Assembly (NCBI GenBank): GCA_016873435.1
Contig: VGXF01000008.1
Location: 1-64,000 of the forward strand
Length of the DNA stretch: 64,000 nt
Reading direction: 5' to 3'
Origin: Nitrospira sp.
GTDB taxonomy: Bacteria; Nitrospirota; Nitrospiria; Nitrospirales; Nitrospiraceae
The notes below the pieces were generated by a model. That model saw only the letters and a program-made list of their open reading frames with translations, had not been told where the DNA came from and searched no databases. Shown piece by piece: positions 331 to 7,855 of this stretch (its first letter is position 1; the number at the start of each line of letters is the position of its first letter). Position numbers and translations under genes: made by a program.

Positions 331-374
331 TAACAGATCCGTAACAACACGATCATTCTTCCGCAACCTCCCGC
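331..374 (+). promoter_or_regulatory. Pho-box-like operator upstream of pstS
   Basis: Four direct repeats lie at an exact 11-nt period, with cores TAACA (331), TAACA (342), TCATT (353) and CAACC (364). This is the geometry of PhoB binding sites, where tandem 11-bp repeats are bound by PhoB dimers. The same order of cores (TAACG, TAACA, TCATT, TCACA) with the same period occurs upstream of the porin gene at 3814-3857. The sharing between two phosphate-uptake genes is seen directly. The identity of the regulator is inferred. Confidence 0.65.
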
Positions 375-2288: not shown

Positions 2289-3761
2289 TCAGTTCCAGAA
2301 CCAGATCACCTGAAACCGCAACAGATTGCCGTAATTGTCGAACTGCTGGCCCGGCGTCGAGGCCGTGCCCGCGGTGGTCGTGAACACGTTTTTCCGCTGC
2401 GTGAAGGTGTAGGCGGTCGTGAATTCCCATTGTGGGTCCGGCTGCCAGGCGATGCCGAGCTCCAGTTCCTTCATTTCGTCGTTGGGGGCGCCGGTCTGGA
2501 ACTTGAGTCCGCCGTAATATTCCTGCCAACGGGCATAGAGGTTGGCCAGTCCCACGTCAGAATATTTCCACTGATAGTGTCCCTGCACGTAGCCGCCGTA
2601 GAGGGCTTCCGTGCGGACGACGCCGTTGGCGTCGCGCTGCGGCCCGCGCCCGGCGGTATATTCTGCGATGAATCCCCAGGGTTGGGGCGGATAGTACACG
2701 TAGAAATTCGCCCGCTCGTCGCGGTAGCTGCGGTCGGCGGTCGTCCCGCTCTGGTTCAAGGAGTAGAGCGTCGTGCCCGCCGCCGCGGTGCCGTGGCTGA
2801 CGACATACTGGCCCTTCATGGCGTTCATGCCGACTTCCATCAGCCGCCCGCCGGGCAACTCGAAGGGCCAGCTCAGGCGCAGGCCGACGTGCTTGTCGGC
2901 GTTCTTTTCGACATTATTCAGGCCCTGTCCGTTATGGACGGTCAGATTGACCACGCCGTAGTCGCCGGGGCCGTACATATAGTCGAGCATCTGCTTGTAG
3001 CGGGCCTGCGCGCTCTTGGGCGTCCACATGAAGCTGACGCCCATGTCGCGCTCGCTGGGCGCGCAGGAGTTAGTCGCGTCGGCCCGGTCAATCGCCATGC
3101 GGACGCGGCTGGCCTGCCAGTTGTCGAAGGAGCAGGGGACACGCTGGAGGCCGACCCGCAGCCGGTATTCCTTGTTCCGGTCAAAATTCCAGTCGCCGTA
3201 GGCATCGCGCATGGTCAGCGTGTGCGTGTTACCGCTGAGATTACTGGCCAGGTCCGGCTGGAAAAAGACCGAGACATGGTCGGAGATCTGCCCGGTCACC
3301 ACCCAGCGGACCCGGCGGAAGAAGAAGCCGGGCTGGGCGCCCGAATTCTTGTCGCCCACGGAGGCGTCGTGATAGGTCCGCAGCAGCCCGTTCGACGCGC
3401 CCAGATTGTTGTAGCGGAACATGCCGTAGCCGAACATCGTCAACCGCTCGTACCAACGCGGGCTGCCCGTGAACTCCGCCACAACGGCCCGCTCGCTCTG
3501 CCGCTGCTCCTCCTCGGCCTTGATTCGGATCCAGTCGTCCATGGTAATGACGCCCTTTTCGAGCAGCAAATCCTCGATGGAGGTGCTCGTCGGTCCCTGG
3601 GGACTCAGCCGCGGCGGTTCCACGGCCGGAGGCGGCTGATTGGCCGCCGGATGGGCCGCCGCCTGCGGTTCTCCGGCAATCGCCGGCATGCCGGCGATCA
3701 GGCCCAGCGCCGCTACTGCCAGCAACCTCGTCAGAGTCATCGTTAGTTGCCGAGTCATCAC
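2289..3761 (-). CDS. phosphate-selective porin (OprP/OprO family)
   Basis: This 490-residue outer-membrane protein has an N-terminal signal peptide (about 1-29, ending in AIAG). A short helical stretch follows (DLLLEKGVITMDDWIRIKAE), typical of the N-terminal coiled-coil region of porin O/P proteins. A long beta-rich barrel alternates aromatic and polar residues and ends in a C-terminal aromatic strand (VIWFWN). The family forms trimeric anion channels favouring phosphate. A good GGAGG lies before ATG 3761. The gene runs towards the lipoprotein at 1590, leaving only six bases between stops. The repeated operator at 3814-3857 lies upstream, matching that of pstS. Substrate preference is inferred from family and context. 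Confidence 0.85.
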   Translation of the reverse strand: MMTRQLTMTLTRLLAVAALGLIAGMPAIAGEPQAAAHPAANQPPPAVEPPRLSPQGPTSTSIEDLLLEKGVITMDDWIRIKAEEEQRQSERAVVAEFTGSPRWYERLTMFGYGMFRYNNLGASNGLLRTYHDASVGDKNSGAQPGFFFRRVRWVVTGQISDHVSVFFQPDLASNLSGNTHTLTMRDAYGDWNFDRNKEYRLRVGLQRVPCSFDNWQASRVRMAIDRADATNSCAPSERDMGVSFMWTPKSAQARYKQMLDYMYGPGDYGVVNLTVHNGQGLNNVEKNADKHVGLRLSWPFELPGGRLMEVGMNAMKGQYVVSHGTAAAGTTLYSLNQSGTTADRSYRDERANFYVYYPPQPWGFIAEYTAGRGPQRDANGVVRTEALYGGYVQGHYQWKYSDVGLANLYARWQEYYGGLKFQTGAPNDEMKELELGIAWQPDPQWEFTTAYTFTQRKNVFTTTAGTASTPGQQFDNYGNLLRFQVIWFWN

Positions 3762-3813
3762 ACCGCCTCCTTCGTTGGTTTTTTATGATCCTTACGCTAC
3801 CAGTTGTACGGGG

Positions 3814-3857
3814 GGGCTGTGACGCGGGAATGACCGGCATGTTACGGGCACGTTAAT
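3814..3857 (-). promoter_or_regulatory. Pho-box-like operator upstream of porin
   Basis: Read on the minus strand, four 11-nt repeats carry cores TAACG, TAACA, TCATT and TCACA. They are in the same order and register as the repeats before pstS. The porin start lies about 50 bases downstream. This is a likely binding site for a PhoB-type regulator that switches on the porin under phosphate limitation. Confidence 0.65.
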
Positions 3858-3910: not shown

Positions 3911-4184
3911 TTGACGGGCAGACATGAGGTCACTGTCGACGGGAAACCGGTGGCCCTGCCCCCCCAAGGAATTTCAGATTCTGCTGCACTTCATGCAATA
4001 TCCGACCCGGGTCTTTTCGCGCGATGAGCTGCGGAACGGGATCTGGGGGGAGGGCTATGCGCTCGAGCAGCATACGCTCGACGTGCACATCCACTCGCTG
4101 CGCCATACGATCGAGCCGGACCCCGCCAACCCCTCACATCTCGTCACGGTCCGTGGCATCGGGTACAAACTCGCCCGGTCCTAG
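3911..4184 (+). pseudogene. PhoB/OmpR-type effector domain remnant, frameshifted
   Basis: From about 3926 the DNA encodes a winged-helix effector domain of the OmpR/PhoB class. It reads EVTVDGKPVAL in one frame and, after a run of seven C at 3959-3965, continues in another frame as KEFQILLHFMQYPTRVF and on to [11 protein letters not shown]. Removing one C restores a continuous domain. The phosphoacceptor receiver domain that normally precedes it is absent, because a stop lies at 3890 and the porin operator lies beyond it. It is therefore either a relic of a response regulator or, if the frameshift is a sequencing error, a stand-alone DNA-binding domain. Its position beside a Pho-box suggests it derives from a phoB-like gene. 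Confidence 0.7.
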
Positions 4185-7100
4185 CTTCCCGGGGAGGCGG
4201 AACGCAGCGCCTCATAGACGCGGCGCGCATCCGAAAGCGGTTCCCACCGAAGGACGGCCAGCGAGTCCTTTACATAGGCCGGTGTGCGCATCCCGTTGAG
4301 CACACAGGTGACGCCGGGCGTGGAGACCAGCACCCAGAGGGCCTTGCGGGAGAGAGATTCGCCCAGCCTGGTCGGGGGCAGAAAAGGGGCCAGTTTTTTA
4401 GCAATCGATGCGGTCGTTTCGCGGCTCTTCATGCCCGCGTCGTGGCGCAGCGTTTTCAGCAACAGGAGCAATTGGGGCAGGTAGCGTGCCTGCCATTGCT
4501 GCCAGGGTTCCGCTCGTGTCTGCTTGAACAGGTTCGTGAGCGCGCGCAGGATTTGATGGAGCTGTGGCGCGATCATCTGGTTCTCGATCTGGTCCCAATG
4601 CTCGAGACCCTGCACGTGCGGACGGATGCGGGTGAGCTCGTCCGCCCAGCGGAAATAATCGTGCGGCGACAGTCCCTGGCCGGACCATGGGACGTGCGGC
4701 GCGAAGTCGCGCCGGTAGTCTGCCTCGATCGCCGCCACCGCCGTGCATTGCGCCTCAAACGCCACGCCGGCTGCTTCGACCGGCATGTCGGCCAGCCGGA
4801 TCATGCCGGCCTCGTTCGACGCCATGGCGTTGAGCGGACGGTTCAGGAGCACTGCGAGCTGCTCCTCGCGGGCTAGGTCCAGCAGTGTTTGTTTTGAATG
4901 TGCGCCGGTGTTGGGCGTCAGCAGGGCGCCCGATTCGAAGAGATTCATGGGGCATTGCACGACGCGGAAATGATGTGGCGCATTCGTCGCAGCCATCCGC
5001 GCGGCTTCGATCATTGATGAGAGCGACGTCGCCTCCGGATCGTTCGAATCTGCTGTGGCGGTGTTGGAGGAGACGCCATACCACCGAATGCGTCCCGCGG
5101 CCACCTGTGTTTCAAGCCAGGCAAAGGCGGCGTGCAGACGCCGATAAAATTCCTGTCGCAGGGCCGGGAGATCTTTGCGACCGCGATGCGCGGCATCAGA
5201 GAGGAAATACTCGGCATTGTGAAGCAGCAGGCCGTCCAGTGTCTGGAGGCCCAGCCGGTCCAGTGACAGATCCAGCTGATCGGCCAGAAACTCTGGATGG
5301 AGACAATGCCAGATGCCGTCTCCGTACTTGACCATCTCAGGGTACGGCGTACCGGCTTGTTCGCGTGCCTCGGCCGTCTTGAGATTCTGTCCCTGCACAT
5401 AGCCGATCTTGGAGACGATAATAACTTCGTTACGCTTTAGTTCGCCGGCGCGGGTCAATTCGGCCAGCACCGAACCGATGAGACGCTCGCTGTCGCCATC
5501 CAGATAATTGGTGGAGGTATCGATCAGGTTGCAGCCCTGCCGGAGCGCGTCGAGCAGAGCCTGGCGGTGGTCGGCGTCGTCCGTCTCGGTTCTGTACCCG
5601 CCAAAGCCCAGCCGGCATACAGTGAGTCCGGTCGAACCGAAGGGCGTGAAGCCGCGTGCCAGATCGGAGTCCTGCCGGGCGATCATGCGCGCCGCGTAGC
5701 CGGCCGTGCCGTCCGGCGTCGCTGCGCCAACCAGCCGCGAGTCGGACAGCGATGTGGAGGGGGACTCCTGTTGCCGGGTGTGCTGTGCCCGCAGGGCTGC
5801 ACCAACTGTTGCAGGATCGGTGAGTGGTGCTTGGCAGGAAAAGTTTCGGCACACATAGAGCGCCGGGGTGCTGTTGACCAGCGATTTGCCGGCCGTCAGT
5901 GGATGCTCTGGCTCGGGTCCCTGCGGATCGTGGTGGGCGATGATCCGGAGGGGGAGGTACCAGCGGTTTGCTTCTGCGCGGAGGGCTTCGTACCGCGACT
6001 CGGCCGGACTGCCGATGAACGCCAGTTCGACCGGTCCACGCAACAAGAGATCGATCACGGAGAGACTCTTGGCAAAGGCGCGGGGATAGCGCGTCATCTG
6101 GCGGCCATAGGCACGGACCGCACGGGCAGCTTCGTCACGAAAATCCTCGCGGGAGAAATGAAAGGACAGACGCGCCAGCACCGACGCCGCCACGGCGTTG
6201 CCGCTCGGCGTGGCGCCGTCCGGACCTTCGCGGCTGCGTAGGATGAGCGATTCATGATCCTTTGACGTGGTGAAGAATCCTCCCTGCTGCGCGTCCACAA
6301 AATCGACCAGGATGCGCTCGGCCAGCCGGACGGCTTCCTTGAGATAACCTTCGTGGGCGCCCGCTTCGTAGAGGTCGATCAAACCCTCGGCCAGCCAGGC
6401 ATAGTCTTCAAGACAGCCATCCAGATGGGCTTTCCCTGCTCGATACGTTCGATAGAGCCCCCCGTCAGGGCGCTGCATGGTGCGGAGCAGAAACTCCGCC
6501 GCCTCTTCTGCCGTCTCCAGATAGCGGCTGTCGCCCAGCACGCGCGCGCCTTCCGCCAGGGCGCTGATCATCATGCCATTCCAAGCGGTGAGAATTTTAT
6601 CGTCCAATCCAGGGGGGACACGCTTGGCACGAGCAGCGTAGACAAGCGGTTTGACCCGCTCGAGTGTCATCTGCAGCTCATTCGGCGTGATATGGAGCCG
6701 CGTCGCCACGGCGTCCAGCGATTCTGGCGTGTTGGGAATGCTGGCGTGCTCCCAATTGCCGCCGGGCGTGATGTCGTAATAGGCGCAAAACCGTGCGGCA
6801 TCCTCTTCGTTCGGCACTGCCGCGCGGATCTGCTCCGGCGTCCAAACGAAGAATTTCCCTTCAACGCCTTCTGAATCCGCGTCGGTGGCGGAATAAAACC
6901 CGCCTTCCGGCGAGGTCATTTCCTTCAGGATGTAATCGAGCATCTCGGTGGCGACGCGGCGGTAGCGATTAAGGCCGGTCGCCTGACAGGCTTCGAGATA
7001 GGTGCGGGCCAGTAGCGCATTGTCGTAGAGCATTTTTTCAAAATGCGGGACCAGCCAGCGGTCGTCGGTCGAATAGCGGGCAAATCCGCCGCCAACATGG

Positions 7101-7855
7101 TCGTACATACCGCCGGCCGCCATGGCATCGAGCGTCGTCGTGACCATCGTCAGTGTGTGCGGATCGCCGGTCCGGTGGTGATGCCGCAATAGAAACGACA
7201 GGCCGGTGGCAGGCGGAAACTTCGGCGCCTGGCCAAAGCCGCCGTACCGCGCGTCGAAATCCTCGGCGAACTCGTTGACGGCCGTGTCCAGTTCCGCTTC
7301 GCCAACAGCGGCCGACGAGGCCACGCGCAACGACTGGTGAAGCTGGCGGGTCACGTCGCCGGCTTGGCGGCGCAATCCGGTCGGGTCCCGTTTCCAGGCG
7401 TCGGCGATTTTCGTCAGGAGCGAGGCAAATCCGGGGCGCCCCCACCGGTCGGCAGGGGGGAAATAGGTGCCGGCAAAGATCGGTTCCTGCTCCGGCGTGA
7501 GAAACACCGTCATCGGCCAGCCGCCCTGGCCATGGTTTAGGGCCAGTGTGGCCTGCATGTAAATTTCATCGAGGTCGGGCCGTTCTTCACGGTCCACCTT
7601 CACGCAGATAAAATGCGTGTTCATGATCGTGGCGATGTCGTTGCTCTCGAACGACTCGCGCTCCATGACGTGACACCAGTGGCAGGCTGAATACCCGATG
7701 GACAACAGAATGGGCGTATTCGTCGCCCGCGCTTTTGTTAGCGCTTCAGGTCCCCACGGATGCCAGTCTACGGGGTTATAGGCGTGCTGGAGCAGGTAGG
7801 GGCTGGTTTCCTGAATCAGACGGTTGGGCGGACGTTGGCTTGTGCGATCGGACAT
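4181..7855 (-). CDS. DUF255 thioredoxin-domain protein fused to aldo/keto reductase
   Basis: This is one uninterrupted 1224-residue reading frame with two unrelated halves. Residues 1 to about 700 match the YyaL/SPATA20 family: a thioredoxin-like domain with active-site CHWC in [15 protein letters not shown], then an alpha/alpha-toroid region ([22 protein letters not shown]). Residues from about 735 form an aldo/keto reductase, with [16 protein letters not shown], the Asp/Tyr region [15 protein letters not shown], the Lys in VSKIGYVQG and the His in LLLHNAEY. The two enzymes are normally separate, so either the fusion is a genuine bifunctional oxidoreductase or it reflects an old gene joining. 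A promoter at 7863-7892 suggests the mRNA begins almost at the ATG. The substrate is unknown. Confidence 0.85.

Follow-up and report, generated by a model that had tools for sequence, protein, structure and literature searches.

Tandem 11-bp repeats of the Pho-box type precede pstS and a porin gene in a Nitrospira genome

The pstS-porin locus and its repeats

The window analysed here, a 64-kb stretch of DNA to which all coordinates refer unless another contig is named, is contig C8 of a Nitrospiraceae genome (label G000; 1.72 Mb, 98.5% complete). It encodes a PstS-family phosphate-binding protein at 426-1514 (+; TIGR02136, E 3.9e-48; PF12849, E 5.2e-30), for which GTG 420 is an alternative start. 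The TIGR02136 score of 164.1 bits is under the curated cut-off of 206.6. Upstream of the pstS promoter lies lp77 (84-317, +), a small lipoprotein-like gene with homologues 5' of pstS in several relatives, and downstream of pstS lies lp230 (1590-2282, +), a conserved lipoprotein-like gene whose synteny is kept in relatives. Neither lp77 nor lp230 has a family match in Pfam or NCBIfam. An outer-membrane porin of the Porin_O_P family is encoded on the opposite strand (2289-3761, -; PF07396, E 1.2e-21), and the gene order lp77, pstS, lp230 and opposed porin is wholly or partly kept in relatives. Divergent from the porin is the remnant of a PhoB-type regulator (3924-4184, +), which consists of the winged helix only (PF00486, E 2.2e-22), has no receiver and shows an apparent one-base frame shift at a C7 run (3959-3965). 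Next to it, an ORF of 1224 aa (4181-7855, -) looks, by eye, like a fusion of a thioredoxin-domain (YyaL-type) protein and an aldo/keto-reductase-like part.

The four repeats predicted before pstS are borne out by the sequence. The site (330-368, +) consists of the units TTAACA, GTAACA, ATCATT and GCAACC, separated by gatcc, acacg and cttcc; the cores TAACA (331), TAACA (342), TCATT (353) and CAACC (364) follow each other in steps of exactly 11 bp. Upstream of the porin gene (3818-3856, -) the units are TTAACG, GTAACA, GTCATT and GTCACA, with tgccc, tgccg and cccgc between them, and their cores have the order and phase of the pstS site, as had been claimed. The 44-base architecture of the original prediction is likewise common to both genes, but its frames, 330-373 and 3813-3856, are shifted by one base from the positions given. 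Both sites are followed by a -10-like element 9 nt past the fourth 6-mer, TATCGT before pstS (378-383, +; read from the sequence) and TACAAC before the porin (3803-3808, -), where the same spacing is found in porin orthologues. TACAAC has the TA of a TAN3T/A element, but its last base is C.

Occurrence of the box in the genome and in relatives

The genome-wide tests were pattern searches. A pattern covering both boxes matched twice in the window, with 0 matches expected from 100 shuffles; since it was written from the two boxes, this expectation is not independent. A 54-column matrix was built solely from boxes of other genomes, which had been gathered with a pattern shaped by the same cores, so that its independence concerns the sequences and not the idea behind them. 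The matrix scores the pstS box 42.8 bits and the porin box 42.7 bits, the next-best site in the window reaching -2.9. When a looser four-unit pattern was run over the whole genome, the two boxes were the only exact matches and the next best had 2 mismatches; at 3 mismatches there were 46 matches versus 28 in the reversed control, mostly background. Two of the 2-mismatch matches, C1:95906 and C6:110137, were considered as further boxes and rejected, as they do not score on the matrix. A pattern derived from relatives and including the -10 element found only the two boxes at up to 3 mismatches, with 0 matches in the control. The whole-genome scan proposed with the original prediction thus yields two promoters and no random scatter of the motif. 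Before another PstS-like gene of the genome (C12) the matrix finds no box.

In many Nitrospira-family loci a box stands upstream of the porin or PstS orthologue. An exact three-unit pattern gave 47 matches in 40 of 100 relatives' genomes and 0 in the reversed control. Directly 3' of the box lies PstS or the porin in 28 of the 30 loci fetched, lp77 in one and a DUF47/PhoU-like gene, which is Pit-associated, in one. Members of a sister family (G070, G073, G080, G083) carry the box before pstS, with PstC following on the same strand after some 2.5-2.9 kb. Boxes before pstCAB or phoU genes, which had been proposed as a check, were found in relatives, as pstS heading pstCAB regions and as the DUF47/PhoU-like gene; matches at pstCAB could be found in relatives only, because the genome studied here is without detectable PstC and has no PstB above cut-off. 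Across 57 boxes from other genomes TAnnnT is conserved at the fixed -10 spacing, and columns left unconstrained by the collecting pattern (G and A of unit 4, TAnnnT) are nevertheless conserved. The claim that two independent genes sharing the box indicate a regulon is supported as to the regulon, but the two loci are not independent, being neighbours in one conserved cluster.

Putative regulators and alternative explanations

A PhoB/PhoR-like pair is present in the genome. The PhoB-like regulator (232 aa, C1:224775-225470) reaches 240.6 bits on TIGR02154, under the cut-off of 296.2. Its closest relative among solved proteins is RegX3, a mycobacterial phosphate regulator (SenX3-RegX3 in PMC4415409). 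With this score and this closest relative, the name PhoB rests on family, neighbours and context. A histidine kinase of 494 aa, named PhoR-like by eye, adjoins the gene on its 3' side, and beyond it, on the other strand, lie Pit and a DUF47/PhoU-like gene (DUF47 named by eye). Most of the relatives searched have an orthologue of the PhoB-like regulator, at about 67-81% identity.

Anatomy, conservation and context are seen in the sequences, and the two sites are very probably Pho boxes of PhoB-type activated promoters; the binder, its phosphorylation and the dependence on phosphate we infer as follows. The likely binder is the PhoB-like regulator of contig C1. Phosphate scarcity would lead the PhoR-like kinase to phosphorylate this regulator, dimers of which would bind the four 11-bp units head to tail, replacing a -35 element. 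With PhoB bound, RNA polymerase would be positioned at the -10 element, 9 nt past the box, and both the porin gene and pstS, the latter probably together with lp230, would be switched on. Some findings count against this explanation. Sister-family genomes with the box have no close orthologue (E <= 1e-70) of this PhoB, and the matrix finds no box 5' of phoB-phoR or of Pit-DUF47 in the genome studied here. Furthermore, PstC and PstB are undetected here, though in E. coli the control of PhoR runs through Pst-PhoU.

A chance or neutral sequence resemblance is barely credible. Even though the motif was originally picked by eye and its 6-mers are degenerate, a fitted null for the matrix from other genomes predicts only about 4e-5 sites scoring above 40 per genome, and the box is kept before porins that are just ~40% identical in protein sequence. 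Conservation in relatives and the matches of the three-unit pattern over its empty control contradict such a resemblance as well. It is also very improbable that a different member of the OmpR/PhoB family, e.g. a cell-envelope response system, uses these sites and only by coincidence has a PstS-like protein and a porin under its control. The family scores of PstS and porin are indeed modest, and a second full-length family member (C4:8597-9256) has an 11-bp repeat of its own nearby; that repeat, however, is of the TTAAT type and scores 1.8 on the Pho-box matrix, and the box found here also stands before the pstCAB-region pstS and the Pit-DUF47 gene of relatives. The C4 repeat itself (TTAACG/TTAATC/TTAATC/TTCATC, 11-bp period, G000:C4 ~7044-7086, equal to L100 ~2545-2587, -) overlaps the end of a kinase gene, just before a gene for a DegP/HtrA-like protease and beside the second regulator.

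Alternatively, but improbably, the box may serve as operator for the orphan PhoB-type regulator beside the porin and not for the genome's PhoB. Many relatives encode such a regulator divergently from the porin, and the tandem-repeat format is common to OmpR/PhoB-family proteins (PMC4832192). In the present genome, however, it is reduced to the apparently frameshifted winged-helix remnant while the boxes are intact, strong boxes occur without such a regulator within ~1.5 kb (L019, L024, L026), and porin boxes are often weaker at loci that retain it. Its recognition helix also reads HIHSLR versus HVRRLK in PhoB. Intact orthologues of the regulator in relatives have a receiver-like domain in which, by alignment, the aspartate at the phosphorylation position is kept and the acidic pair and lysine of PhoB are absent, so that the regulator may be independent of phosphorylation. 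A 350-bp scan in one direction had left weak porin boxes at several regulator loci; when the scan was widened, several of these loci proved to have two boxes in opposite orientation, one towards the porin and one towards the regulator. Opposed Pho-like boxes between porin and regulator, scoring about 15 to 39, are present in L016, L033, L034, L036, L037, L039 and L041. One box pointing towards each gene suggests that the Pho regulon of several relatives includes the pseudo-receiver regulator itself.

Under the preferred reading of PhoB-activated promoters, the box-defined regulon comprises two promoters, as PstC (E <= 1e-20) and PstB (above cut-off) are undetected in the genome; the search covered these two components. 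A complete PstSCAB was not found and PstS is not counted in a complete Pst system, while a Pit carrier is present. PstC is undetected here and in several relatives with the close porin type, in which PstS, porin and PhoB are kept. Among 37 same-family genomes (G000-G036), some of them incomplete, PstC is missing in 8 of the 9 genomes that have the close porin type and in 9 of the 28 others (p 0.005, Fisher test, which ignores relatedness). As a tentative and rather doubtful proposal, some Nitrospiraceae may have lost PstCAB and kept a Pho-controlled PstS and phosphate porin together with low-affinity Pit. Phosphate sensing by PhoR would then have to work independently of the Pst complex, perhaps via the DUF47/PhoU-like protein encoded beside Pit and PhoBR, and the decayed pseudo-receiver PhoB paralogue, Pho-boxed in relatives, would form a second layer. 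Genomes with PhoBR and without detectable PstC and PstB offer a setting to probe Pst-free sensing by PhoR. The Nitrospirales Pho-box matrix with its -10 spacing is well supported and lets phosphate-regulated genes of nitrifiers be predicted.

Relation to known Pho boxes

PHO boxes are tandem 11-bp direct repeats with a conserved core of ~7 bp and a spacer of ~4 bp, and their consensus differs between species (PMC4415409). In E. coli, the repeats are placed ~10 bp 5' of a TAN3T/A -10 element (PMC1906773). Both Nitrospira promoters have four units in exact 11-bp steps and lie in a phosphate-acquisition context, PstS and Porin_O_P here, pstCAB-region pstS and DUF47 in relatives. Taking together the 11-bp layout, the E. 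coli-like -10 spacing and a consensus that varies between species, the best reading of both sites is therefore a canonical Pho box of mixed consensus, an already well-known kind of switch by which many bacteria activate genes on running short of phosphate. Pseudomonas oprP and oprO belong to the Pho regulon. New here is a Nitrospirales member of the canonical Pho boxes, and it is unexpected to find them where neither PstC nor PstB is detected; a search of the open literature on Nitrospira and the Pho regulon returned no title describing a Nitrospirales Pho-box matrix.

The pstS promoter of E. coli, controlled by PhoB, is alike in having four direct repeats with an 11-bp period, the last unit lying 9 nt before the TA of TATTTT in this register. 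It has CTGTCAT-like units throughout, whereas in Nitrospira GTCA-like cores are found in units 3-4 only, and it scores just 1.9 on the Nitrospirales matrix, in the same register. The original prediction of a consensus unlike CTGTCAT accordingly holds for units 1-2 (TTAACA/GTAACA, with TAACA cores), but not for units 3-4 of the porin box, where GTCATT and GTCACA keep the GTCA core. PhoP boxes of Bacillus subtilis, the sites of a firmicute regulator, are TTAACA-type repeats with N5 spacing, as in Nitrospira, a likeness at the level of the consensus; a literature search for TTAACA with PhoP found no paper. The cyanobacterial SphR box, CTTAACCT, in which 8 bp and a 3-bp linker form at least 3 equivalent repeats, was predicted by similar footprinting (PMC1906773). 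It shares with the Nitrospira sites the 11-bp period and, in units 1-2, the TTAAC core; its consensus is one of equivalent CTTAACCT repeats, whereas the four Nitrospira units are non-equivalent and of mixed consensus (PMC1906773).
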